This document shows positions 1-39,802 of a DNA stretch of 40,373 nt, in pieces; within the stretch, counting starts at the first letter, position 1; the number at the start of each line of letters is the position of its first letter. The notes beneath the pieces were generated by a model, which was not told where the DNA came from, ran no database searches, and worked only from the letters and a program-made list of their open reading frames with translations. Both the position numbers and the translations under genes were made by a program. The stretch is from Ignavibacteriales bacterium (lineage in GTDB: Bacteria; Bacteroidota; Ignavibacteria; UBA10030; UBA8401), in assembly GCA_016182545.1 (NCBI GenBank), contig JACPGG010000050.1, forward strand, positions 5,323-45,695, given 5' to 3'.

Positions 1-1311
1 CCTGATTCTGCATCGTTTAAGAAAGTATTTGTCTGGATTGATACCCTTGTCGGTGGTGGAACAAAACCATACTATCGTTCACACACTGTCAGTATCGAAA
101 AGAATTTTCTTTACGTCAACGGCGGTGATTTCGGCGGAACCCGCATTATGGATATCTTCGATCCGCTCAATCCTTTGCAAGTCGGTTCATACGGAAAAGG
201 GAGCACCCCGTATGTTCACGATGCGATCATCAGGAATGATACCCTTTACGCTTCAGCAATTAACGGAAACCGATTGGATATTGTGGATTTTTCAACGAAA
301 GGTCACTACACACAAAATACAACCGGGAAGATCGTCAGCAAAACAACGACAGCCCCTGAAGGAAGAACACATCAGGCATGGTTAACTGAGGATGGAAATT
401 ATATGTTCGTCGCTACCGAAGTAACCGGCGGACATCTGCACATTTATGACATTACAAATAGAACCAGTCCAATTGAAATAGCAACCTGGTCCTCTGATCC
501 AATAGCGAGCATCCACAATGTTTTTGTGAAGGGCGATTTCCTCTACATTGCATATTATGGTGAAGGCTTCAGAGTGCTTGATATTAAAAATCCTTCCAAT
601 CCGATCGAAGTGGCATTCTATGATACGTATCCCGGCTCAACTCAACCCGGCCACAACTCTGTTTTTCACGGAGCGTGGGGTGTTTATCCTTATTTCCCAT
701 CAGGAAAAATTGCTGTCTCAGATATGAATACAGGTTTGTATGTACTGACAGTGAATGAGAAGCATGGCGGAAATGTAACCGGCGTCGTTCGTGATGCCGG
801 CACAGGTCAAGTGCTGGAGAATGTAGAAGTGCTTGTTCAGGAGATGGGGAGAAAGTCACTCACAAATGTTTCCGGAAGATATGCGTATGGAAGCGCCTCG
901 GGTGCGCATACGATAAAATTTTCAAAGAGTGGATATATTGCACGACTTGACACTGTGGTCACCATAGCAGGAACAATGGACACAGTTGATATCTCACTTA
1001 CTCCCGTCTCAACCGGTGCGGATATCGTACAAAACCACGACGTGCCGAGAGAATATTCTCTTTTGCAAAATTTCCCAAACCCGTTCAACCCGGAAACACA
1101 GATTGGTTTCACAATTCAGGTTTCAGGTTTTACGTCTCTGAAGGTGTTCGATATGCTCGGACGTGAAATTGAATCGTTCGTGAACCGAACTGTTTCCCCC
1201 GGCTTCTATACTATTACAATGAATGCAGGGAGTCTTTCAAGCGGTGTATACTACTATACACTGACATCAGGAACATTCTCCTCAACCAAAAAAATGGTCG
1301 TCACTAAATGA
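1..1311 (+). CDS. Choice-of-anchor-B / LVIVD-type secreted protein with carboxypeptidase-like regulatory domain and T9SS C-terminal sorting domain (5' partial; frame is open from base 1)
   Basis: Frame 1 is open from position 1 (PDSASFKKVFVWIDTLVGGG...); LHIYDITNRTSPIEIATW and FRVLDIKNPSNPIEVAFYD repeats; C-terminus NFPNPFNPETQIGF...VFDMLGREI...[22 protein letters not shown]. Confidence 0.85.
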   Translation, partial: PDSASFKKVFVWIDTLVGGGTKPYYRSHTVSIEKNFLYVNGGDFGGTRIMDIFDPLNPLQVGSYGKGSTPYVHDAIIRNDTLYASAINGNRLDIVDFSTKGHYTQNTTGKIVSKTTTAPEGRTHQAWLTEDGNYMFVATEVTGGHLHIYDITNRTSPIEIATWSSDPIASIHNVFVKGDFLYIAYYGEGFRVLDIKNPSNPIEVAFYDTYPGSTQPGHNSVFHGAWGVYPYFPSGKIAVSDMNTGLYVLTVNEKHGGNVTGVVRDAGTGQVLENVEVLVQEMGRKSLTNVSGRYAYGSASGAHTIKFSKSGYIARLDTVVTIAGTMDTVDISLTPVSTGADIVQNHDVPREYSLLQNFPNPFNPETQIGFTIQVSGFTSLKVFDMLGREIESFVNRTVSPGFYTITMNAGSLSSGVYYYTLTSGTFSSTKKMVVTK

Positions 1312-3653
1312 AATCATTCGTCTGCCTCCTCTTCCTTGGTTCTCTTCTTTATTCTCAAGAACGATACAGTCAAGTCCGGATCCCCGTCCACTCTGCGGAG
1401 GAGTTCAAACGGATCGCCGATCTTGGTATTGCAATTGACCATGTTGAGGGAAAGATCGGCGGAACAATATCGGTTTTCCTGAGCGAGACCGAATTGAAGC
1501 AGTTGGATGAAGCAAATGTTCCGTATTCGTTCATCATCAAGGACTGGATACAATTCTACGCCGAACGGCAACGCCGGAAAATCGGATCCCTGCAAAAATT
1601 CTCATCAACCGCACCGAAAAATTTCAGGTACGGTGCCATGGGTGGATTCCTGACGTACGCCGAAGTGATTCAGCAATTGGATTCAATGAAACTTCTCTTT
1701 CCGGCTCTCATCACTTCAAAGGATTCCATCGGTCACACCCACGAGGGACGAGCGATTTACGCACTCAAGATCTCCGACAATCCCTCGACCACCGAACCGT
1801 CCGAACCGGAAGTACTTTATACCGCACTCCATCATGCCCGCGAGCCGCAGGGAATGATGACAGTGATCTATTACATGTGGTGGCTGCTTGAAAATTACAC
1901 CACAGATCCGGAAGCAAAATACCTTGTCGACAATCGACAGATGTGGTTTATCCCCGTCGTCAATCCGGATGGCTATGTATTCAACCAAACACTGCAGCCG
2001 AACGGCGGCGCGATGTGGAGAAAGAACCGACGTGACAATCTTAACGGAACATTCGGAGTCGATCTGAACAGGAATTACGGTCCCGAGTTCATGTGGAATG
2101 CTCCGAATGGAGGATCAAGCACGAGCACTAGCAGTGACGTCTATCGGGGAAGTTCACCATTCTCCGAACCTGAGACGCAAGCGATCGATGCGTTCATGCG
2201 GGCACATGTTATAAAGACTTGTTTCAATTACCACACTTATAGCAATCTATTGATCTATCCGTGGGGATACAAATCGATGGAAAGTGAGGACTCGATCCTT
2301 TTCCGTGATTGGTCGTTCGATATGACATCGGTGAATCGGTATGCGACGGGAACAGACCTTCAAACGGTCGCGTACTCTACCAGAGGCAATTCAGACGACT
2401 ATATGTTCGGAGATACTTCCGGTGCAAAAATACGGACGTATGCGCTGACGCCCGAAGTAGGCGCCACAGGATTCTGGCCATCGATCGAAGAGATCTATCC
2501 TCTTGCAGAAGAGAATTTAAACGCAAATAAGTACCTGGCATTTGTTGCAGGAGAATATCTTTCTGTTCAGACTTTTTTGAATAATGGCGTAAACAGCGGA
2601 ATGGTCATCGATAATAAGGGCCTGAGTGAATCGCAACCTCATCTCTTTCACTTTCAAACTTCCGATGGCGTTGTCAGCTCATCTGCCGCATCCGGCACTA
2701 TTCCTTCTCGGTCCAGCGATACAATACAGTTCGCCTTCGTCCTTGGAAATCCTATCCCATCACCAACTGCAAAAATTTATATCAAGGACGCAGTTGGCGG
2801 AGCGATGGTAAACGACAGCGTTATGTTCCTTACAGGATCATCGACGATAGTATTTCACGACAGTGCAAACTCCACCTCACAATGGTCCACCGGCACAGGA
2901 TGGAGCGGCGTCGATGATCTTCTTGCGAACTCAAAAGTATTCACCGACAGTCCGAACGGAAAGTACGCTGCGAATGTCGATAATTCTCTCACGCTCCTCT
3001 CTCCCATCGATCTTACCTCTTATCAGTTCGCTGAACTGCAATTCAAAACAAAATGGTCGATCGAACCGGTGTGGGATTTCGGCGTGGTGGAAATTTCGAC
3101 CGACGGCGGTTCGGTGTGGAAACCGGTAAAGACGCGATATTCGCGAAAAGGATCTGAACGATTCGGCAGCAAGCAGCCCGCGGGAAGTTTCGGATACGAT
3201 GCGTTCTCCCCTACCAGTGGATGGATCGATCAGAGAGCGGACATTTCAGAATTTGCCGGCAAGCAGATAGCGATCAGATACCGACTATCATCCGACGGAG
3301 GTGAAGAACGCGATGGATGGTATCTGGATGATATACAGGTCATCGGATATTCACACCCTCCTCTGTCAGTTACGGACAAAGAAATTCCATATTCATTTAT
3401 ATTATTGCAGAATTACCCGAATCCATTCAATCCTGTCACGCGAATTAACTATGGAATTCCTCGCTCAGGTTTCGTAACATTGTATGTGTATGATGTGCTG
3501 GGAAGAAGGATTGCGGAGTTGGTGAACGGATATCAAGAAGCGGGAAATCACAGCACCTACTTTGATGCATCGGGGAATTCCTCAGGAATATATTTTTACC
3601 GGTTATCAACCGGTTCGCACTCTTCCGTGCGAACAATGACAGTACTCAAATGA
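1308..3653 (+). CDS. M14-family zinc carboxypeptidase with T9SS C-terminal sorting domain
   Basis: HHAREPQG (HxxE), [21 protein letters not shown] (His ligand), [12 protein letters not shown] (catalytic Glu region); C-terminus [20 protein letters not shown]...[14 protein letters not shown] overlap with the upstream CDS. Confidence 0.93.
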
Positions 3654-17136: not shown

Positions 17137-18108
17137 TTACTTCACCAGCAACATCTTCTTCGTCGAGACAAGATTCCCTGCCTGGAGCCGGTAGAAATAC
17201 AATCCGCTCGGCACTCCCGATGCATTCCATTCCTGCCTGAATGTCCCAGCGCTTTTCACACTGTTCACCAGCGTTGCAATTTCATTTCCCAGAACGTCGA
17301 AGACCTTGAGCGAGACATGTCCCGACACAGGAATCGAATACCGAATCGTCGTAGCGGGATTGAACGGGTTGGGGTAGTTCTGATGAAGTGCAAATTCTAT
17401 CGGCTGAACCGGGTTATTGCCCACACGATTGACAATACTATACTTGAGAATGAGTTTAGGACGATTTGCAGCAGTTACATCTTCCCGCGAGCTGATAACC
17501 TTAACAGACTGTGATGAAACCTCATCGCCAACAATCATCCACCCAAAGTTTGTCGATGTATCGCTTAGCCATCCCTGCACATCACCGATCAGCAGTGATG
17601 TTGAATCAAACGAATACGCTCCGGTGCCGGCAATATTGACCGTTGAACTGGCATTGGCAACAAAATCTCCTCCAAGGGTTCCCCAATCGACGGTGTTAAA
17701 GAATCTGTGCTTCCATGTTGCATCGCCTGTTGTCGCTGCCGCACCCTGCCCGGTCGCACCGCCATCGGAGGTCCCTTCGCCCCATTCTGACGTAACACGG
17801 TGCAACTTTGTTACTCTCGCCGTTGAGTTGTTCACCTTCTTAACATCCACGACAACCTGTGCGCTGACGATTTTTGCGTTTTCCGGCAAATCTGAGAGAT
17901 TGAACTTGACAAGAGCCCTTCTGAGTTTTTCCTGTCCGTTCGGACCGATCTTTCCGACGAATAACGATGCACCGGTTCCGCTGCTGAGGGAGCCGTCAGC
18001 TATTTCATAAATGCCACAATCTTTCGTAGCCGTCAAAGTTACTTCCTGTTGTGAAAGACCAATAGAAACAATACACAACAGGGCGAGCAGTGGCAGTGAA
18101 GTCCTCAT
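17137..18108 (-). CDS. DNRLRE-domain secreted protein with T9SS C-terminal sorting domain
   Basis: TLTATKDCGIYEIADGSLSSGTGASLFVGKI...RALVKFNLSDLPENAKIVSA; C-terminus [43 protein letters not shown]...GLYFYRLQAG. Confidence 0.9.
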   Translation of the reverse strand: MRTSLPLLALLCIVSIGLSQQEVTLTATKDCGIYEIADGSLSSGTGASLFVGKIGPNGQEKLRRALVKFNLSDLPENAKIVSAQVVVDVKKVNNSTARVTKLHRVTSEWGEGTSDGGATGQGAAATTGDATWKHRFFNTVDWGTLGGDFVANASSTVNIAGTGAYSFDSTSLLIGDVQGWLSDTSTNFGWMIVGDEVSSQSVKVISSREDVTAANRPKLILKYSIVNRVGNNPVQPIEFALHQNYPNPFNPATTIRYSIPVSGHVSLKVFDVLGNEIATLVNSVKSAGTFRQEWNASGVPSGLYFYRLQAGNLVSTKKMLLVK

Positions 18109-18738: not shown

Positions 18739-18777
18739 TAAAAAAAGAACCCCGAAATGCTCACCATCCCGGGGTTC
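18739..18777 (-). terminator. Rho-independent terminator downstream of the Ton/Exb-PstS-TPR unit
   Basis: Minus strand GAACCCCG-GGATGGTGAGCATTT-CGGGGTTC-TTTTTTT. Confidence 0.85.
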
Positions 18778-18796
18778 GGATATACTCTCAACAATA

Positions 18797-19805
18797 TTAT
18801 TTAAGCTTCAACGATGCAACTACATTCTCAAATGCAGGCTGAAAATCAGACGACATCGGCTTGTACCACGTCAGGATCACCTGGTAGATCTTCTCTCCCT
18901 TCGCAACAAAATAGACTCTGCGATCGATCTGGGGCGTCGGGGCTGCGGTCAATACTTTGGCGTCAAGTCCGTCAACTTTTCCTGATGCAGTCGATTTCGG
19001 TTTGAACTTCCCTTTGTTGTCCTCAAAGAACCGTTCGAATTTCACTTCACCCTTGTCTGTCTTTGTAGCAAAGACACTGATATCGATTGTGCAATCTTTT
19101 CGCAACCCTTCAACGTGGAGCGAATGTACCGCTCCCCCTTTCTTTTCACTCACGGGTGTGACTGTAAAGTTATCCGGATGCATGAATTCGAGAAAATCGT
19201 TCGCAAATTTGGTCACTTCGGGGGAGGGCTTCGATGCCGCATTCGGATCGGTATATCGTTCCTTCGGGCGCGGTAATTTGATGGACGCGACGATCTTGTC
19301 GAGCAGAGGTGAATACACATCAAAGTATTCATTGAATCCTGTAACGCTCACCGTATAGAAAGCGCTGTCATGCGCCACAATGATCTTCTTGCCTGCCATG
19401 ACAGTATTCTTGCTCACTTTCACTTTGTATGAATACGAGACTCCGTTTTCTTTACCCACCGTGACAGGTTGTTCATTGGCAAGGTTCAATGAATTTTTCC
19501 CAGGCAATGGTAACCTCCACGCCGCTTTCATCCTCCCCGGCTTCGCCGGTACCGGTTGAATACACTTCATAGAATTTATCTGCGACGACCTGTGAGGAAT
19601 AGACACGCACGCTTTTTGGATCGGCATTCAACAGCCATCCTTTAGGATATTGGATCTCCATTCCGTTGATGGGGTCTTGATGCGTATCCCATTCCGTAAC
19701 ATTCGGCAGTTCCGCTTTTTTCTTACAGGAGGAAAATGTGCCGGCGATGAGAACGATCAGGACCATCAGTCCGAGAGACGAAATATGTGTCAATTGTTTT
19801 TTCAT
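18797..19805 (-). pseudogene. Lipoprotein of unknown function, one gene split by a frame disruption at the A5/T5 run 19494-19498
   Basis: ORF 19473..19805 carries MKKQLTHISSLGLMVLIVLIAGTFSSC lipobox and ends ...VTIAWEKFIEPCQ; ORF 18797..19627 continues ...SLNLANEQPVTVGKENGVSYSYKV; one fewer A gives VTIAWENSLNLANEQPV. Confidence 0.75.
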
Positions 19806-19833
19806 AGATCACCTTTTGTGGTTGAATGAATAC

Positions 19834-21570
19834 TTATTTATCACAATTCATCTGTGCCGATTCCTTTTTTGCCGCAGCGTTCTTTGGGTTCAATTTCAGT
19901 ACTACCCCGTATTCCTTGCATGCTTTTTCTCTGTACTCCTTCGCTTCAGAAGCGAGAAGTTCCTTATCGCCGCTCTGCACCGCGTACATCTGTGCCAAAA
20001 AGAGATGAAGGTTTTCATCCTTCTTATCTTTTTCGTAACCGATCGCCTTCTCCAATTTATCGATCGCATCTTTTACTTTCTTTTCCTTCCAGTCGAAGGA
20101 AGCTATCATCCTGTATCCGTTGATGGACATCGCGTTATGTTGTACCACTTTCTTTGCATCTGCTTTGTCTGCGGCTGCAGCGCTATCTGCAAGTTCAACA
20201 AGTTTATTACCGTAATATCGCCCCTGCTCAATGGAATCTTGTAAGCTGTATATCTGTCCGAGAATTTGGTAGGCTTGCAAAATATTCGGGCGGTGGATGA
20301 TTAATTTTTTGTAATTCACCTTTGCACATTCATACCGTTCAAGAATATAACAGCCAAATCCTGCATAGAATAGCGCGGTAATGTTGTCAGGATCTTTCGC
20401 TAAGATTCGTTCGTACTGCACAACAGCAAGATCATACTTTTTTTGAGATACATAGATGAATGCAAGCGTCCCCACTGCATCCATATACTCCTGATCCATC
20501 GACAATGTCTTTTCCAAAAATTTGATCGCATTGATCGTATCTTTCAATTGAAAGTACGAATATCCCATTCGGTACACTTCATCTTTGCCGAGCGAATCAG
20601 CCGGAAGCGATTTGTACAAGTCGACCGATTTTTTGTATTCCTTCGTGAGATAGTAGCAATGAGCGAGCATCGGTTTAAGTTCGAAACTCTTCGGATTCAA
20701 TTTGATTGCTTTTTCCAGTCCGGGAATGGCGTCAGGATACGCTTTTGCATTGTAGGCTGAAATGGCATACTTTTCCCACGCTTCGGCATTATCCTTCACC
20801 ATATCGTTGAACTTCTTAAAGAACTCGGCTGCTTCGCGCCAATACTTGATCCGGTAAAATATATTCGCGGCATCAAGCACCGCCTTCGTGTTCGCAGGAT
20901 CAAGATCGATCGATTTTTGAAGTGCAGCGATGATCTCCCGTATCTGATCGGCATTCAACACGCGGTTTTTCAAAATCGTTGTCGCCAAACGATACCACAA
21001 TGCCGGGTCATTCGGCCGTAATTGCGTGGCTGTGCGGAGATTATCGACAGCGAGAACGATCACGTTCTGACGTGCGTAGACTTCGGCAAGACCGATGTAG
21101 GCATCGGCATTTTTCTCGTCGACCTCTTTCACTTTCGAAAAGTAAATGGATGCTTTGTCGACTGAATCGGCATCCAGGTATGTTTGCGCATACGCCAGCG
21201 GTGCGGCAATTCCTTTTTTATGATACTTTGCGGCTTCGTTGTATGCTTTCTGTGCTTTGTCCCATTGTTTCAATCCGCCATAGACGCGGATGATCGATGC
21301 AAGCGCCGGCTCGTACTCGTCGTCAAAATCCAGCGTCCGATCCAGCTGTTCATACGCTTTTTGGAGATCGCCTTTCATTCGGTACGACTCGCCGAGAAGG
21401 AAGTTCGCTTCAACATGGCGCGAATTGCTGACGAGATATTGCTGAAGGAGCGGGATCGCCGCATCGTACTCTTTATTGTTGAATGCTGTCCGTGCTTTTG
21501 TAAGATCATCCTGTGCCAGGAGATTCCCTGAGCAGAGAATGAGAAGTAGTGCGGTAAAAAACTTCATCAT
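19834..21570 (-). CDS. TPR-repeat protein, secreted
   Basis: MMKFFTALLLILCSGNLLAQ signal; many TPR units (FNNKEYDAAIPLLQQYLVSNSRHVEANFLLGESYRMKGDLQKAYEQLDRTL etc.). Confidence 0.9.
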   Translation of the reverse strand: MMKFFTALLLILCSGNLLAQDDLTKARTAFNNKEYDAAIPLLQQYLVSNSRHVEANFLLGESYRMKGDLQKAYEQLDRTLDFDDEYEPALASIIRVYGGLKQWDKAQKAYNEAAKYHKKGIAAPLAYAQTYLDADSVDKASIYFSKVKEVDEKNADAYIGLAEVYARQNVIVLAVDNLRTATQLRPNDPALWYRLATTILKNRVLNADQIREIIAALQKSIDLDPANTKAVLDAANIFYRIKYWREAAEFFKKFNDMVKDNAEAWEKYAISAYNAKAYPDAIPGLEKAIKLNPKSFELKPMLAHCYYLTKEYKKSVDLYKSLPADSLGKDEVYRMGYSYFQLKDTINAIKFLEKTLSMDQEYMDAVGTLAFIYVSQKKYDLAVVQYERILAKDPDNITALFYAGFGCYILERYECAKVNYKKLIIHRPNILQAYQILGQIYSLQDSIEQGRYYGNKLVELADSAAAADKADAKKVVQHNAMSINGYRMIASFDWKEKKVKDAIDKLEKAIGYEKDKKDENLHLFLAQMYAVQSGDKELLASEAKEYREKACKEYGVVLKLNPKNAAAKKESAQMNCDK

Positions 21571-21582
21571 GCTTCCTTCACG

Positions 21583-22512
21583 TTATTGTTGATTGAGTTG
21601 GACTAACCGTACCGGCATCGTTGCAGGAACAAGGCCGTTCTTGACGATGATCTTCTGACCTTCGATCCCCGCCGCAAACGATGAAAAACCGAGAGCCACA
21701 CCTCTCCCTGCCTTATGAGTATAAATATAAATGGTCCTGCTCAAAGGATAATAATTCCTGTAGATATGCGCCTGATGGGGTGGAAAATATTCCAATACTG
21801 TCGATGTGCTGTCCCTTTTAAAATTCGGATCCCCGATATCAAGCACGCGGATATTGTCGGAAGCATGCGTTAGCCAGCTTATTCCGACAAAGCCGATGGC
21901 ATTGGGACGGCTACTGACGACGGAAAGAATTTCATCCGTTGTGGCGCACGGTAACATCGCCGTTGAGAGGTCCGCCGATCCGGCAATTCTTGTTCTGAGA
22001 TATTCTTGAACGCCGCTGTTGGCATCTCCCATTGCGATGATGATGGCGCTGGAAAGATTCGAGCCTTTCACATCTGTCCACCGCTTCATATCGCCGGTTA
22101 AGATCCTCTTCAGATCTGCAACGGTGATTTTTTCGAGCCCATTTTTCTTATTGACAATCACAGCAATAGCATCGTACGCTATTTTTGTTGTCGAGACATC
22201 AAGATCGTTCTCAGCGATGACTTTTTTTTCTTCGTCGTTGAATTCCCGGGGACTGACGATCAATTTGACGCTGTCGTTCAATAATTGTACGATCGCGTCG
22301 CGTGTCGACGATGCCAGGTGGGTGATCTTTACCTCTTCGTACACCCGTGAAAAATCCTTCACCTGCAGGTCGATGACAGGAAAGATATCTTCGGAAGTAA
22401 TGATCGTAAGGCTGCCGCGCGTCGGCGATTCACGTTGTTCTTCTTGGCATGCTGACAGTGCGATGACGAGGAAGCAGATGAGAGTCGGTATGGAGGATTT
22501 AGCGATTTTCAT
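21583..22512 (-). CDS. PstS-family phosphate-binding-like lipoprotein (start MKIAKSS at 22512)
   Basis: LICFLVIALSAC lipobox; KIAYDAIAVIVNKKNGLEKITVADLKRILTGDMKRWTDVKGSN; GDANSGVQEYLRTRI; NAIGFVGISWL; YPLSRTIYIYTH. Confidence 0.88.
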   Translation of the reverse strand: MKIAKSSIPTLICFLVIALSACQEEQRESPTRGSLTIITSEDIFPVIDLQVKDFSRVYEEVKITHLASSTRDAIVQLLNDSVKLIVSPREFNDEEKKVIAENDLDVSTTKIAYDAIAVIVNKKNGLEKITVADLKRILTGDMKRWTDVKGSNLSSAIIIAMGDANSGVQEYLRTRIAGSADLSTAMLPCATTDEILSVVSSRPNAIGFVGISWLTHASDNIRVLDIGDPNFKRDSTSTVLEYFPPHQAHIYRNYYPLSRTIYIYTHKAGRGVALGFSSFAAGIEGQKIIVKNGLVPATMPVRLVQLNQQ

Positions 22513-22711
22513 CTTCGTGCTGACGTTGCTTGAGTCGGGTCGATAAGGCTCGGTAACTACCATAGAGGAGCAGCACAACGCCAAACATTACCCGGAATTT
22601 TTCAGGGACGCGAAATTCCGGGGGGAAAAAGAACAGAATATATGCGCCCATGAAAATGAACAACCCTGCCATCGCGTACCCGAAATACGCAAACATTTTT
22701 GAGGGGTCCAT
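22499..22711 (-). CDS. Small membrane protein of unknown function (70 aa, two TM)
   Basis: MFAYFGYAMAGLFIFMGAYILFFFPPEF and FGVVLLLYGSYRAL; overlaps the start of the PstS-like CDS. Confidence 0.65.
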   Translation of the reverse strand: MDPSKMFAYFGYAMAGLFIFMGAYILFFFPPEFRVPEKFRVMFGVVLLLYGSYRALSTRLKQRQHEDENR

Positions 22712-22720
22712 CAGATGAAA

Positions 22721-23455
22721 TTACCGCCCTTGGTTTAATCTGAATTTGAACGGAATCGACACCCACACTGCCACCGGTCCGTTATTCATGATTGCCGGAG
22801 TGAATTTCCATTTCATCGCGGCATCGATCGCCGGTTGATTAAACAACTCTGCATCGGATTTCAATACCTGTGCTCGCTTGGGATTTCCTTCTTTATCGAC
22901 CCAGATTTTCACCCACACGGTTCCTTCGACCCCAGCACGTCGCGCAATCTCCGGATAGACCGGTGAAGGATTATTTCCGGGAATCGGGTTCGGTTGCTTT
23001 TCAACGGGAACGAAATCCGGTGGCGGACCTTCATCTTCGATCCTGACATCCTGTTCGATTTCAACAGGACCGCCCTCTCCCGCTCCTTCTCCGATAGGAC
23101 CGACAGCAGCCATTTCTTCTTGTGTTGCAATTGTCTGCTCGGGATTAATTTCCGCATCCGGTACGGGAACAGGCGTTCCCACTGTGGGCTTTGCCACCGG
23201 ACCCTGAACCGATACCGCGGGTGCTGCCTGCGAATTGGTAATAGACGGCGGCGGACCAAGATCGCTGTACTTCATGATGCGTACGGAATAGACCGGTTCA
23301 TCTTCCTCCAATAATGCTTCCAAGCCGTAGTAGGCACCCATACCACCGGCGTGTAACAGTCCTGCTGTTACAAGCGCCCATGAAGAGTACTTCCGCGTCA
23401 AGATGCGGAGTTCTTGAAAGCCATAGGACGAATTTACTGCTGCAGTTGTTGCCAT
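22721..23455 (-). CDS. tonB: TonB-family energy transducer
   Basis: N-terminal TM, Pro-rich linker, C-terminal YPEIARRAGVEGTVWVKIWVDKEGNPKRAQVLKSDAELFNQPAIDAAMKWKFTPAIMNNGPVAVWVSIPFKF. Confidence 0.93.
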   Translation of the reverse strand: MATTAAVNSSYGFQELRILTRKYSSWALVTAGLLHAGGMGAYYGLEALLEEDEPVYSVRIMKYSDLGPPPSITNSQAAPAVSVQGPVAKPTVGTPVPVPDAEINPEQTIATQEEMAAVGPIGEGAGEGGPVEIEQDVRIEDEGPPPDFVPVEKQPNPIPGNNPSPVYPEIARRAGVEGTVWVKIWVDKEGNPKRAQVLKSDAELFNQPAIDAAMKWKFTPAIMNNGPVAVWVSIPFKFRLNQGR

Positions 23456-23477
23456 AGTTTCTTCTTACCCTAATTTG

Positions 23478-23987
23478 TTATAGCGTTCCAATTATTCTTC
23501 GATCATCGTCAAGCATAGGCGCAAGACTGAAGCGGGTGATATCGTTGATATTCAACTCATCCATGATATCGACCATATCGATATATTTTGCTTTCCCGTC
23601 CACTTTGATCAACGTGATCAATTTGGGATTGGCGCGGTTACGATCCTTCAACAATTTCCCCAGGTTGATCAGCTTTTCTTTTTTGTCTGTCCCATCTACT
23701 GTAACAGGTTTTTCAGTTCCGACATTCCAGAATAACCTGAAATCTTCAGTGACTCTGAGGGTCAGCAAATTTGATTCTGCCACTTCAGCTTTTGTCTCAG
23801 ACGGCGGGAGGTTAATTTCCATCGTCTGAGGTTTATTCATAGTCGTCGTGAGCATGAAAAACGTCAACAGCAAGAATGCAACGTCGACCATCGGTGTCAT
23901 ATCAATTCTGACACCGACACGCTTCGATTTCTTTTTACCTTTATGTTTTTCTTTTCCCTTCGACTGGGATACTTGTACATCTGCCAT
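23478..23987 (-). CDS. exbD: ExbD/TolR-family biopolymer transport protein (paralogue 1)
   Basis: RIDMTPMVDVAFLLLTFFMLTTTM; KYIDMVDIMDELNINDITRFSLAP. Confidence 0.93.
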   Translation of the reverse strand: MADVQVSQSKGKEKHKGKKKSKRVGVRIDMTPMVDVAFLLLTFFMLTTTMNKPQTMEINLPPSETKAEVAESNLLTLRVTEDFRLFWNVGTEKPVTVDGTDKKEKLINLGKLLKDRNRANPKLITLIKVDGKAKYIDMVDIMDELNINDITRFSLAPMLDDDRRIIGTL

Positions 23988-24003
23988 GACGGTCTCTCTT
24001 AAA

Positions 24004-24528
24004 TCAGATTGATGAAATTAATTTTTTATCTTCATCTTTCATTGAAGCAATGCTGAATCTTGTGATATCGTTGACATTCAGCTCATCCATAATATCCACC
24101 ATATCAATATATTTTGCCTTATTATCGATTTGAATAAGTGTTATCAATTTCGGATTAGCCTTATTATGCTCCTTCAAAATTTTGCCTAAACCAATTAATT
24201 TTGCTTTACGCTCGGAACCATCAACAACTGCTGGTTTATCCCTTCCGATATTCCAAAATATCTTAAATCCGTCCAAAACTCTCACCGTCAAAAGATTGGA
24301 TTCTGGCACCTCTACAATTGGCTGTTTTCCACTTGGATCATTTGGTGGGAGGTTGATCTCCATTGTTTGAGGCTTATTCATCGTTGTCGTGAGCATGAAA
24401 AACGTCAGCAGCAAGAATGCGACGTCGACCATCGGTGTCATATCGATACGGACACCAACACGTTTCGATTTCTTTTTGCCTTTATGTTTTTCTTTTCCCT
24501 TCGACTGCGATACTTGTACATCTGCCAT
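24004..24528 (-). CDS. exbD: ExbD/TolR-family biopolymer transport protein (paralogue 2)
   Basis: First 62 aa identical to paralogue 1; KYIDMVDIMDELNVNDITRFSIAS. Confidence 0.93.
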   Translation of the reverse strand: MADVQVSQSKGKEKHKGKKKSKRVGVRIDMTPMVDVAFLLLTFFMLTTTMNKPQTMEINLPPNDPSGKQPIVEVPESNLLTVRVLDGFKIFWNIGRDKPAVVDGSERKAKLIGLGKILKEHNKANPKLITLIQIDNKAKYIDMVDIMDELNVNDITRFSIASMKDEDKKLISSI

Positions 24529-24545
24529 ACTAAATTCTCCTCAGG

Positions 24546-25001
24546 TTATTTTTCCAAGTCCGTTACAAGGTTGAAACGCGTGATATTCTCCCGCTGGAGA
24601 GTTTCCATCACACCCTGGATGACGGCGTACTCGGATTCACTGTCTGCCTTGATGACGGTTCTGAGTTTTGGGTTACGAATACGGGCTTCGCGCAACAGCG
24701 GACCCAATTCCGTTAATTGTACCTGAACACCCGCTTTCAATTTATTCTGTACGCCAAAGATCGCTTCCCGGATCGGCTGAGCATCAAACCCCAAATAGAC
24801 GTTCCCTTCTTTGTCAACGGTGACAGTCATAACATCGGAATCCGGAAGTTTGAAAACAGAATGCGATGAAGGAAGGACCACTTCGGCGACATCAGAGGGT
24901 TTGAACTGCGTCGTCAGCATGAAAAATGTCAGAAGCAGGAACCCGACATCCACCATCGGCGTCATATCAAGTTTAAATCCAACCCGTTTTGTTTTCGACA
25001 T
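24546..25001 (-). CDS. exbD: ExbD/TolR-family biopolymer transport protein (paralogue 3, divergent)
   Basis: FKLDMTPMVDVGFLLLTFFMLTTQFK; SEYAVIQGVMETLQRENITRFNLVTDLEK. Confidence 0.92.
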   Translation of the reverse strand: MSKTKRVGFKLDMTPMVDVGFLLLTFFMLTTQFKPSDVAEVVLPSSHSVFKLPDSDVMTVTVDKEGNVYLGFDAQPIREAIFGVQNKLKAGVQVQLTELGPLLREARIRNPKLRTVIKADSESEYAVIQGVMETLQRENITRFNLVTDLEK

Positions 25002-25022
25002 AACAACTCCTTCGGGTTTACT

Positions 25023-25745
25023 TTATTCGTGTTTCGATTGTAAGTTCATTAAGATATCTTTGCTTGCTTCGTCGATCATGTAGGTCATGCCGTCGATCTT
25101 CGTTGTAAAAAAGTTGTACGCCACGATCGCGCAAATAGCGATCGCAATTCCGCCTGCCGTGTTGATCAACGCTTCGGAAATACCGAGTGACAACTGTGTT
25201 GCATCGGCAGCGCCCGCTTTTGCAAGGGCGGCAAATGAACGGATCATACCAAGCACCGTTCCAAGCAATCCCCACATTGTGGCGATCGATGCGATCGTCG
25301 AGAGGGCGATCAGGTTGCGTTCCAGGATCGGCATCTCAAGCATGGTCGCCTCTTCGATCACACGTTTCACCTCTTCCATTTTTTCTTTCTTGCTCATATC
25401 CTTTTTTGTGCCGAGTTCTTGATACCGTTCGAGTCCGGTCTTGACGATGTTCGCCATCGAACCGCGTTGTTGGTCGCAGACGGAGATCGCTGCGGAAATG
25501 TCGTTTGAATTGAGGTTGGTCACGAGAGATTTAAGGAATTTCGGGAGCGGTCCGCGGCCTCCGGCTTTCTTCAACGAAAGAAGGCGTTCAATGACGTATG
25601 TAACGACCATAATGGAAAGAGCCACAAGACCGGCAACCAGTGGTCCACCCTCTTTGATGAACTGCGGCAACATAAATTCGTAAATCAAATACCCGATAAC
25701 TGCGGCACCAAAAATGATGACCATGTTTAGTGAACCTTGTTTCAT
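25023..25745 (-). CDS. exbB: MotA/TolQ/ExbB proton channel family protein
   Basis: LERNLIALSTIASIATMWGLLGTVLGMIRSFAALAKAGAADATQLSLGISEALINTAGGIAIAICAIVAYNFFT. Confidence 0.95.
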   Translation of the reverse strand: MKQGSLNMVIIFGAAVIGYLIYEFMLPQFIKEGGPLVAGLVALSIMVVTYVIERLLSLKKAGGRGPLPKFLKSLVTNLNSNDISAAISVCDQQRGSMANIVKTGLERYQELGTKKDMSKKEKMEEVKRVIEEATMLEMPILERNLIALSTIASIATMWGLLGTVLGMIRSFAALAKAGAADATQLSLGISEALINTAGGIAIAICAIVAYNFFTTKIDGMTYMIDEASKDILMNLQSKHE

Positions 25746-25792
25746 AGAACGACTCCTTTGATATGAAATAGTTTATTGTATAATGAAGTAAT

Positions 25793-26140
25793 TTACTTAG
25801 CGATAGCGTAGATCGCGTCTTCACGCGCCTCCGCTGTACTGAAGATTGTTGACAGTTTTGTGACGACAAAAACGTTTGTAATGCTCTTGTTGACATTGCA
25901 CAGTATCATTTTGCCTTGACGATTCATGTACGACGTATGTGCCGATACCAACACCCCAATAGCGGAAGAATTCAGATATTCAACATCGCCAAGATCGACG
26001 ATCAATTTCCGATTTCCTTGTTCCAGAAGCGTATGAACTGTTTTCTTTAACTCGTCCGTTTCATCCCCGCCTACAAGGGAACCCTTTGGTTCGAGCACAA
26101 CAACACGGCCTTCGTCAACGGTTGAGGATTTTATTTTCAT
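25793..26140 (-). CDS. STAS-domain protein (anti-sigma factor antagonist-like)
   Basis: VVVLEPKGSLVGGDETDELKKTVHTLLEQGNRKLIVDLGDVEYLNSSAIGVLVSAHTSYMNRQGKMILCNVNKSITNVFVVTKLSTIF. Confidence 0.92.
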   Translation of the reverse strand: MKIKSSTVDEGRVVVLEPKGSLVGGDETDELKKTVHTLLEQGNRKLIVDLGDVEYLNSSAIGVLVSAHTSYMNRQGKMILCNVNKSITNVFVVTKLSTIFSTAEAREDAIYAIAK

Positions 26141-26193
26141 TTCCGAATCCTTTTTGGTGGTTTTACATGCTGCTTTGACAGCCGTCTATCTTT

Positions 26194-26224
26194 AGTATAG
26201 AGAAGATAAAGAGAGAGAAGTCAA
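26194..26224 (-). promoter_or_regulatory. Candidate sigma70-like promoter upstream of STAS/exbB/exbD/tonB unit
   Basis: Minus strand TTGACT - 19 nt - TATACT; spacing slightly long. Confidence 0.35.
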
Positions 26225-26319
26225 GTTGCAATAAGAAATTTTGAAGAATTTAGAGATGTACGCTGTTCAACTTGAAATATACCACCCGTACTTAACCGGA
26301 CAGAATTGTTATCGTATTG

Positions 26320-37237: not shown

Positions 37238-38077
37238 ATGAACAAAGAACAACATGTGCTTGAATTCATTCCTGATTTTTTAATTGGGAATTTCGATTCG
37301 AACAAACGCGCAGCGATCCAGTCGCATCTGCAGGTATGCGAACTCTGCAGGCGCGAGTATGAAACGATCGCAATGCTGTGGAACTCTCTAGGTGAATTGC
37401 CGGCAGTGCGGCCGAGCACCGGATTGCACGAGCGATTCAACGCGATGCTTGCGGCGTACGAGCACGGTCTGCATCATGCAAAATCCAAAACTACGTTCGT
37501 CGATTCGATAAACGTTTTTATAGAAATATTCTGGCCGAAGCAGGCTGCCATCCAATTTGCGATTGCACTCCTTTTATTTGCCGGAGGAGGCTTTATCGGG
37601 ATGCAGGTCACTCGTCCGACCGAACAGAAACATCGTTCGGAATCAAATGTGGAAATCGCTGAGTTGCGGGGTGAGGTGCAGGCAATGAACCGCATGCTCG
37701 CTGTTTCGTTGATGCAGCAGCAGTCAGCAAGCGAGCGGCTTCGCGGTATCACGCTCACGTCGCAATTCCCGCAAGCGGACGGCGAACTGACTTCTGCGCT
37801 CTTCGAGGCATTGAACTACGATCCGAATGTCAACGTACGTCTTGCGGCGGTCGATGCGCTGCAGCAATTCGGCAACGATCCGGCAATCCGCAAAGGGATC
37901 ATCGACGCATTGAAGAGACAGAAATCACCCATTATTCAGATGGCACTCATTGATGCTTCGGTTTCACTGCAGGTGCTGCAAACAAAACCTGTCATGCAAG
38001 AATTGCTGAAGGATACGACACTTAATGTAGCAGTAAAATCACGCATTGCATTCGCCTTGAACGAATTGGAAAGTTGA
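37238..38077 (+). CDS. Zinc-finger (zf-HC2-type) anti-sigma factor with C-terminal HEAT repeats
   Basis: FIPDFLIGNFDSNKRAAIQSHLQVCELCRREYE (HxxxCxxC); TM FAIALLLFAGGGFIGMQV; DPNVNVRLAAVDALQQFGNDPAIRKGIIDALKRQKSPIIQMALIDA HEAT-like. Confidence 0.88.
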   Translation: MNKEQHVLEFIPDFLIGNFDSNKRAAIQSHLQVCELCRREYETIAMLWNSLGELPAVRPSTGLHERFNAMLAAYEHGLHHAKSKTTFVDSINVFIEIFWPKQAAIQFAIALLLFAGGGFIGMQVTRPTEQKHRSESNVEIAELRGEVQAMNRMLAVSLMQQQSASERLRGITLTSQFPQADGELTSALFEALNYDPNVNVRLAAVDALQQFGNDPAIRKGIIDALKRQKSPIIQMALIDASVSLQVLQTKPVMQELLKDTTLNVAVKSRIAFALNELES

Positions 38078-38089
38078 GGTGATAAATCC

Positions 38090-38932
38090 ATGGTTTCTCA
38101 TTCCCTAAAAACCGTTCTACTTGCTCTTGTCGTCACAACAGCGGCGCACTGTTTCGAGATCTACGACCGCGAAGAGATCAAGAAAACATTCTCCAGTCCG
38201 ATCATTCAAAGAATCTTCGTCGACAACATCAGCGGTTCAATAAAGATCGTCGGGAAGCCTGTGAAGGAGATCCGTATGGTCGCAAAAAGAACAATCGGAG
38301 CGGAATCGTCGGAAAAAATAGTTGAAGCCAAAGAAGATGTCGTACTGGAGTTTGTCGAAGAACGTGACCGGCTCGAGATCGTTGTCAATGCGCCGGGGCG
38401 GAACGGAGAAAATATCAACTGGAGGGGGAAAGAATTTTACGGTTACGAAGTGAGGTACGATTTTGAATTGGAAGTCCCCTTGGATTTGATCCTGTTCGTC
38501 AAAACTGTCAACGACGGGAAGATCAACATTGAGAATGTTCGGGGAAAATTCAATGTCAAAAATGTCAACGGACCAGTCATTGCAACCGGTTTGACAACCG
38601 GCGGATCGATACACACTGTCAACGGAGCGATAGAAGCAGAATTTGTCGAATCACCGAAGGAACCATGCTCGTTCAAAACAGTCAACGGCGAGATCGAAGC
38701 AATTTTTCCGAAGAACCTTGCGGGACTGGTAAAACTCAAGACATTCAACGGAAAAGCATACTCCGATTTTGAATTCAAAGAGATCTCCCCTGAACCGGCA
38801 AGTTACGAGACCAAAAGAGGACGACGGATCTATCGGCGGGGTGAGAACACCCGCGTTCAGATCGGTACAGGTGGCCCGGAAATGCGATTCGAAACGCTGA
38901 ACGGCAACATCAATATACTGCAACAGAAATAA
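38090..38932 (+). CDS. DUF4097-family beta-strand repeat protein, secreted
   Basis: IFVDNISGSIKIVGKPVKEIRMVAKRTI; VNDGKINIENVRGKFNVKNVNGPVIATGLTTGGSIHTVNGAIEAEF; FETLNGNINILQQK. Confidence 0.82.
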   Translation: MVSHSLKTVLLALVVTTAAHCFEIYDREEIKKTFSSPIIQRIFVDNISGSIKIVGKPVKEIRMVAKRTIGAESSEKIVEAKEDVVLEFVEERDRLEIVVNAPGRNGENINWRGKEFYGYEVRYDFELEVPLDLILFVKTVNDGKINIENVRGKFNVKNVNGPVIATGLTTGGSIHTVNGAIEAEFVESPKEPCSFKTVNGEIEAIFPKNLAGLVKLKTFNGKAYSDFEFKEISPEPASYETKRGRRIYRRGENTRVQIGTGGPEMRFETLNGNINILQQK

Positions 38933-38965
38933 TTCAAAAATAATTTTTATCGGACGGAGGTTCCT

Positions 38966-39802
38966 ATGAAACAAAAAATTTTAACTATTTTTTTTCTCTC
39001 ACTGCTGAGCGTCGACAAAATCAATGTGCAACTTGCCGATCCAACGAGACCTGTAACATTGAAAGTCAATCTTCTCAGCGGCAGTATCGTGGTTCAAGGA
39101 TATTCAGGCAAGGAGGTCATCGTCGAAACTTCCCCCGCCAAATTAAAACACCATAATGAAAGCGATGAAGATCACGACGAAGATGACGAAGAGGAAAAGA
39201 GCCGTCCCTTAAAACAGGGATTGCGCTTGATCCCCAACCTCGCTTCGGGATTGTCTGTTGAAGAGGATGATAATGAAGTCACGGTAAGTACGAGCTGGCG
39301 CGGGCATAATAATCCGATGGAGATCAAAGTGCAGGTACCATTCAACTGCTCGATGAAGCTGAGCACCGTGAATAATGGTGACATTGAAGTGAGCGATGTG
39401 ACGGGGGATGTCGAGGTGAACAACGTCAATGGTTCGGTCACGTTGAATCGTATCAACGGATCGGCAGTTGCTCATGCATTGAATCACGAATTGAAGGTCT
39501 CCTTCGTTAAAGTGAATCCGCAACGGTCGATGTCGTTCAGTTCGTTAAACGGCGATGTCGACGTCACCTTCCCAGCCGACATCAAGGCGACGTTCAATAT
39601 GAAATCCGAACAAGGGGAGATCTACAGCGATTTCGACCTTGACCTGGAAAAGACCACCAGCAAAGTTGAAGAGAAAGGAAAAAGCCGCGGTAGATACAAA
39701 GTGACTGTTGAACGGGCTTTAAAAGGAAAAGTCAACGGTGGCGGACAGGAGATTCTCTTCAAAAATTTTAACGGTAATATCTATATCCGCAAGGGGAAGT
39801 AG
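38966..39802 (+). CDS. DUF4097-like beta-strand repeat protein, secreted, with acidic/His loop
   Basis: LKVNLLSGSIVVQGYSGKEVIVETS; STVNNGDIEVSDVTGDVEVNNVNGSVTLNRINGSAVAHAL; FKNFNGNIYIRKGK. Confidence 0.82.
   Translation: MKQKILTIFFLSLLSVDKINVQLADPTRPVTLKVNLLSGSIVVQGYSGKEVIVETSPAKLKHHNESDEDHDEDDEEEKSRPLKQGLRLIPNLASGLSVEEDDNEVTVSTSWRGHNNPMEIKVQVPFNCSMKLSTVNNGDIEVSDVTGDVEVNNVNGSVTLNRINGSAVAHALNHELKVSFVKVNPQRSMSFSSLNGDVDVTFPADIKATFNMKSEQGEIYSDFDLDLEKTTSKVEEKGKSRGRYKVTVERALKGKVNGGGQEILFKNFNGNIYIRKGK

Follow-up and report, generated by a model that had tools for sequence, protein, structure and literature searches.

A conserved Bacteroidota-type TonB operon in an Ignavibacteriales bacterium with a PstS-like lipoprotein and a TPR protein as probable accessory subunits

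TonB-dependent uptake, which brings in SusCD-type sugars, heme, B12 and siderophores, dominates outer-membrane nutrition in the Bacteroidota. In this machinery, ExbB and ExbD draw on the proton gradient to power TonB, which in turn opens receptors in the outer membrane, and models of the motor mostly follow the three-protein complex of E. coli. The operon described here lies on the minus strand of a 40,373-nucleotide stretch of contig JACPGG010000050.1 from an Ignavibacteriales bacterium (the window; all coordinates are positions in it) and joins the genes for such a motor to genes for a 70-amino-acid membrane protein (TM70), a PstS-like lipoprotein (PstSL) and a secreted TPR protein. The available data fit best with one operon that encodes a Bacteroidota-type complex for energising TonB, in which PstSL, the TPR protein and TM70 would be accessory subunits, a reading that we hold with moderate confidence.

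Among described systems, the tonB2 locus of Riemerella comes close, since exbB, two exbD genes and tonB stand there in the same order and are directly followed, in the same direction, by a gene annotated as a phosphate substrate-binding protein of the PstS type; tonB2 is needed for the use of hemin and iron (PMC4446302). Unlike in the window, neither a STAS protein nor a PsbP-like lipoprotein is reported for that locus, and neither the substrate-binding protein nor a TPR gene is discussed as a part of the system. In F. psychrophilum, loss of exbD2 impairs growth under iron limitation (PMC9331221), and the TonB-ExbBD genes belong to the set with high expression under every condition (PMC9723704). 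The vWA-TPR-TolQR-like motors of the Planctomycetes-Verrucomicrobia-Chlamydiae bacteria are similar in that a TPR gene adjoins a motor of the ExbB type that has two distinct ExbD/TolR-like genes, but a vWA transducer replaces TonB and a PstS-like protein is absent (PMC12204202). A literature search that misses most subscription papers returned no paper treating PstSL, the TPR protein or STAS as part of a TonB system, and none on ExbB, TonB and STAS combined in the Bacteroidota. The first-pass annotation of this DNA had judged the link to STAS and the terminal lipoprotein, and the function, to look under-described; the term is fair for PstSL, the TPR protein and STAS, but the core association is not new, as the order exbB-exbD-exbD-tonB-substrate-binding protein had been noted in passing in Riemerella (PMC4446302).

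The operon comprises STAS, exbB, three exbD genes, tonB, TM70, PstSL, the TPR gene and a terminal lipoprotein gene, separated in this order by 47, 21, 17, 16, 22, 9, -14, 12 and 28 nt. Pfam and NCBIfam recognise STAS, MotA_ExbB, ExbD (three times), TonB_C, PBP_like_2 and TPR among the products; neither gave a family above cut-off for the 70-amino-acid protein or for the window's terminal gene, and Rfam gave no match within the operon. Ten genes on this strand and over this span had been seen from the beginning, with the corrections that the last one is not intact and that the third exbD stems from a duplication private to this genome.

At the head of the operon, phylogenetic footprinting reveals a conserved block, AAAATTTCTTATTGCAACTTGACTTCTCTCTCTTTATCTTCTCTAT (46 nt, 26197-26242; about 57 bits of information in an alignment of 14 copies from upstream of STAS), in which AAATTTCTTATTGCAACTTGA and then TTTATCTT follow at a fixed distance and correspond to TTGCAA-N17-TATCTT (26231-26203), that is, a -35 element TTGCAA (26231-26226) and, after a 17-nt spacer, a -10 element TATCTT (26208-26203). 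The sequence upstream of STAS has diverged among the relatives, and this block has been kept. It occurs once in its own genome at up to three mismatches, and a longer, 36-nt form of it is found exactly once per genome in 15 of the 22 family genomes, in every case between a DUF255 gene and STAS or where the contig ends at this position; the reversed pattern gave zero matches in the same genomes. More diverged copies are present in two further relatives (L040 and L049), and the block was not found in genera g2 and g8. Across the loci scanned, it scores 46-77 bits versus a shuffled maximum of 2.5, with no rival site near. We infer that the block acts as the operon's promoter, and its conservation across the spacer suggests that a regulator besides RNA polymerase may bind there. 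The promoter proposed earlier, TTGACT-N19-TATACT, is not conserved and gives way to this element; a generic sigma-70 scan yielded 12 sites versus 15.3 in shuffles, hence no excess.

At the tail, a Rho-independent terminator with a 13-bp stem followed by T7 (18747-18777), already noticed in the first-pass annotation, recurs in the same place: a strong hairpin and T-run directly follow the lipoprotein gene in 13 of 13 loci examined, with stem sequences that differ. The conserved promoter block at the head, the conserved terminator at the tail and the short gaps between genes support a single operon transcribed as one unit, as had been proposed. Within the window's family, the order STAS-ExbB-ExbD-ExbD-TonB-TM70-PstSL-TPR-lipoprotein is kept in 18 genomes, some of whose loci are cut by contig ends and two of which, from genus g8, have no detectable STAS and TM70. 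Two more family genomes carry fragments of the operon, and it was not seen in one fragmentary family genome (G020, 82% complete). Since the order recurs in 18 genomes, with fragments in two others, the arrangement is far beyond chance.

Unusual for a TonB motor are its constant neighbours TM70, PstSL and the TPR protein. PstSL (309 amino acids, 21583-22512; PF12849, 1.4e-35, 123.8 bits) most likely starts at the ATG at 22512 and not at an upstream TTG, as the ATG start gives it a lipoprotein signal with lipobox Cys22; the residues after this cysteine that might serve as a lipoprotein export signal are acidic in the window and its near relatives and inconsistent across the phylum. Its AlphaFold2 model (pLDDT 88) has the type-2 PstS structures 4omb and 4gd5 as top Foldseek matches, with a TM-score to target of 0.92 at about 20% identity for 4gd5. 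The predicted overall fold is thus that of type-2 PstS (TIGR02136), a subfamily model of NCBIfam on which PstSL scores 127 bits and does not reach the cut-off of 206.6.

The ligand site is a different matter. We take the phosphate-contacting residues of E. coli PstS to be Thr10, Phe11, Ser38, Asp56, Arg135, Ser139, Gly140 and Thr141, and in the alignment the window's PstSL has E41, D42, T70, P88, G162, S166, G167 and V168 at these sites. In a set of 44 homologues, 38 of 41 have Glu or Asp at the Thr10 site, none of 43 has Arg at the Arg135 site (Asp or Glu in 18), and the Thr141 site is mostly changed. Unlike type-2 PstS, PstSL therefore lacks the Arg ligand, is mostly altered at the Thr141 site and has an acidic residue at the helix N-terminus; it also carries a conserved C-terminal tail, GLVPATMPVRLV, which characterises the group both in the window's family and in many other families, and its neighbours are a TonB motor in place of PstCAB.

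No PstC, PstA or PstB is encoded in the operon, so that the pairing of a PstS-like protein with a proton-motive-force motor, pointed out in the first-pass annotation, is confirmed at the level of genes. The search for a separate pstSCAB, suggested at the same time, uncovered a complete phosphate operon elsewhere in the genome (C26, 830-6530, locus L051), with the order porin-pstS-pstC-pstA-pstB-phoU (gene names assigned by inspecting translations) and a PstS that keeps the canonical motifs. Because the ligand residues are lost and pstSCAB-phoU has a canonical PstS of its own, PstSL, as judged from its sequence, is not this genome's phosphate receptor. Phosphate uptake by PstSL was ruled out as the leading explanation on these two grounds, and the earlier suggestion that it takes up phosphate compounds is not upheld. 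PstSL is probably a repurposed component of the TonB machinery and does not serve to transport phosphate.

The same residues bear on a second possibility, namely that PstSL truly binds a solute, be it phosphate, a phosphorylated compound or something else, in the periplasm or at the cell surface, and passes it to or takes it from a TonB-dependent channel that this motor powers. The PstS fold, the lipobox, the Ser139 and Gly140 sites, which are mostly kept, and the position of PstSL, mostly next to TonB genes, all agree with such a receptor. We nevertheless regard it as unlikely, since the loss of the Arg135 equivalent in all homologues and the Glu or Asp at the Thr10 equivalent in nearly all argue against an anion, the operon includes neither a TonB-dependent receptor nor a permease, and the genome possesses a canonical PstSCAB system.

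Beyond the family, a PstSL profile search of 297 genomes of the phylum gave matches in 226, many of the weak ones being canonical PstS; weaker matches in families f24, f7, f21 and f19 were set aside as canonical-type PstS without a motor. From the better matches, 40 loci from many genera and families were taken. ExbB, two ExbD, the TonB region and PstSL follow in order in 26 of these 40 (in some, TonB was recognised only with a broader profile), TPR is present wherever the contig continues, and in nearly all loci the TPR gene adjoins PstSL. In three loci (L115, L126 and L137) TonB-TM70-PstSL-TPR stands without ExbBD next to it, and in three others TM70-PstSL-TPR is all that is kept. Named records with the arrangement outside the window's family include candidate division KSB1 (L069, L073), and in a Bacteroidales genome (L074) its two halves are swapped. 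The neighbourhood, whose conservation the first-pass annotation had named as a check, is therefore kept well beyond close relatives, with the core order ExbB-ExbD-ExbD-TonB-TM70-PstSL-TPR found across Bacteroidota and KSB1, and nothing that it had named as speaking against its proposal was observed. Two loci from other genera of the phylum (L124, L130) hold tandem pairs of PstSL-like genes with no TonB motor, which form a separate paralogous group.

This distribution also speaks to the possibility that PstSL and the TPR protein, with TM70, form an independent envelope module that is merely co-transcribed with the TonB motor, both being housekeeping functions. Six loci that keep TM70-PstSL-TPR without adjacent ExbBD would fit such a module, and physical contact with the motor is putative. 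The order TonB-TM70-PstSL-TPR is, however, kept throughout a phylum in which genes are heavily shuffled, TonB stays in L115, L126 and L137 even where ExbBD is not adjacent, and PstSL and TM70 overlap by 14 nt, all of which makes this explanation improbable.

The motor itself has all the parts of a TonB-ExbB-ExbD energiser: a MotA_ExbB protein, ExbD with its transmembrane aspartate, a TonB_C domain and receptors in the genome. ExbB (240 amino acids, 25023-25745; PF01618, 1.3e-32) is followed by ExbD1 (151 amino acids, 24546-25001; PF02472, 1.1e-23), ExbD2 (174 amino acids, 24004-24528; PF02472, 2.5e-25) and ExbD3 (169 amino acids, 23478-23987; PF02472, 3.9e-28), all three ExbD sequences sharing MTPMVDV(A/G)FLLLTFFMLT with the conserved aspartate (MTPMVDVGFLLLTFFMLT in ExbD1). 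TonB (244 amino acids, 22721-23455; PF03544, 3.9e-21; TIGR01352, 67.3 bits with a cut-off of 27.1) combines an N-terminal hydrophobic segment with the TonB_C domain. Next comes TM70 (22499-22711), with two hydrophobic segments and a basic tail, whose family is conserved at the same position. ExbD2 and ExbD3 (23478-24528) are a tandem duplication private to the source genome, all other family genomes having two exbD genes; ExbD3, at 64-87% identity, is the orthologue of the relatives' second ExbD, and ExbD2 is its lineage-specific duplicate. The first 180 bp of the two genes are about 91% identical and the remainder is divergent and AT-rich, although similarity rises again in a patch close to the 3' end, a pattern that suggests gene conversion or recombination.

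The genome has 29 TonB-dependent receptor plug domains above cut-off and only two ExbB-family genes, counts that are lower bounds in a fragmented assembly of 205 contigs and 88% completeness. The second of these ExbB genes, on C134 (locus L157), belongs to a motor of its own with ExbD, a TonB_C protein, a SPOR-like protein, a beta-barrel-like protein and a TPR protein of 1001 amino acids. The operon's motor probably energises the roughly 29 TonB-dependent receptors. A Tol-Pal-like or gliding/type IX secretion motor in place of a TonB energiser, at which the best NCBIfam scores of ExbB and ExbD (TolQ and TolR models, under their cut-offs) could hint, is very improbable and was dropped together with the gliding or type IX role once floated for the operon, since the TonB_C domain is above cut-off, Pfam and NCBIfam find no TolB, Pal, GldK/L/M/N or other Gld/Por genes in the operon and place ExbB and ExbD in the ordinary MotA_ExbB (TolQ-like) and ExbD families, and a similar arrangement serves hemin and iron uptake in Riemerella (PMC4446302).

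Returning to the TonB energising complex with accessory subunits, ExbB and the two different ExbD proteins would form a proton-driven motor in the inner membrane, and TonB would carry its work to the TonB-dependent receptors in the outer membrane. PstSL, the secreted TPR protein (578 amino acids, 19834-21570, with a signal-peptide-like N-terminus and matches to many TPR Pfam families) and TM70 would be co-produced accessory subunits or docking partners of the motor. Specifically, PstSL would have been taken over from a phosphate receptor, with its fold kept and its anion site gone, and would most likely act with the TPR protein as a structural or docking partner or as a receptor for a non-phosphate ligand. 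The locus, coherent and widely conserved, extends the known TonB operon and does not amount to a novel type of system; a phosphate role is unlikely.

Several points weigh against this model. The Riemerella substrate-binding protein is likened to PstSL by annotation and gene position, not by sequence; the phylum loci were picked by PstSL score and give no unbiased frequency; and PstSL-TPR sometimes occurs without ExbB adjoining, so that the pair could have a function of its own. The loss of the ligand is read from a sequence alignment and not from a ligand-bound structure, and the Ser139 and Gly140 sites are mostly, the Thr141 site in part, retained. We infer the physical association of PstSL, the TPR protein and TM70 with the motor from gene linkage, and it is because this linkage is wide that they may be seen as extra subunits. 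More tentatively still, PstSL-TPR-TM70 might constitute an accessory complex, hitherto unrecognised though conserved widely, which has at its base a phosphate receptor without its former ligand site, couples, anchors or gates TonB in the Bacteroidota motor and, in the Ignavibacteria/KSB1 branch, is controlled by a STAS phospho-switch.

The STAS protein (115 amino acids, 25793-26140; PF01740, 1.9e-14) scores 62.9 bits on TIGR00377 (cut-off 53.45), which places it in the anti-sigma-antagonist (RsbV/SpoIIAA) superfamily. As in these antagonists, the phospho-acceptor is kept: S58-S59 lie at the phospho-serine site of SpoIIAA, and the S59 position is Ser or Thr in 16 of 17 aligned homologues. Unlike them, it has no kinase, phosphatase or sigma gene alongside (no RsbW, RsbU or SpoIIE adjoins it in the operon), and its gene neighbours are those of a TonB motor. 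Because the genome has RsbW-like HATPase genes at other places (C199, C135), a partner switch with such a kinase would be possible; STAS is probably a phosphorylation-switched regulator.

At the other end of the operon, the terminal lipoprotein gene (18797-19805) is split into two overlapping frames (19473-19805 and 18797-19627) that together match the intact genes of relatives, of about 343-370 amino acids. Aligned with these at the DNA level, it shows a 62-bp deletion after about position 19483, following the EKF codons, and is thereby frameshifted; it may be a recent pseudogene or reflect an assembly error, the latter being conceivable because the assembly is fragmented. The AlphaFold2 model of a relative's protein (pLDDT 84) has two tandem domains, with PsbP and CyanoP as best solved Foldseek matches, and PF18933 (PsbP_2) is above cut-off in two of five relatives' proteins; a sequence search of the PDB gave no match, and the fold search alone did. 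Hence the likeness to PsbP, CyanoP and PsbP_2 lies in the predicted fold and a weak to modest Pfam match in relatives, but here two tandem domains sit on a lipoprotein in a TonB operon with nothing photosynthetic about it. STAS occurs solely in the window's order, in some other members of its class (L109, L114) and in KSB1 and similar records, and the lipoprotein is rarer still (L069, L070, L071, L073, L112, L120). Both are clade-restricted extensions of a core that recurs across Bacteroidota and KSB1, and would have been added to it in that clade.

Elsewhere in the window, three genes (148-1311, 1308-3653 and 17137-18108) encode secreted proteins with a C-terminal sorting domain of the NYPNPFNP type, as in type IX secretion cargo. 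Two adjacent secreted proteins at 38090-39802 share a repeated NVNG/TVNG pattern and are apparent paralogues of each other, and a zinc-finger anti-sigma-like membrane protein (37238-38077) is encoded upstream of the pair.

The findings have a practical and a conceptual side. Domain annotation labels PstSL as a component of a phosphate ABC transporter, which is probably the wrong function and can mislead metabolic reconstructions, and this mis-annotation is likely to be widespread. At the same time, the firm place in the operon of a TPR protein and of a conserved lipoprotein derived from PstS suggests that the TonB motor of the Bacteroidota has further subunits.

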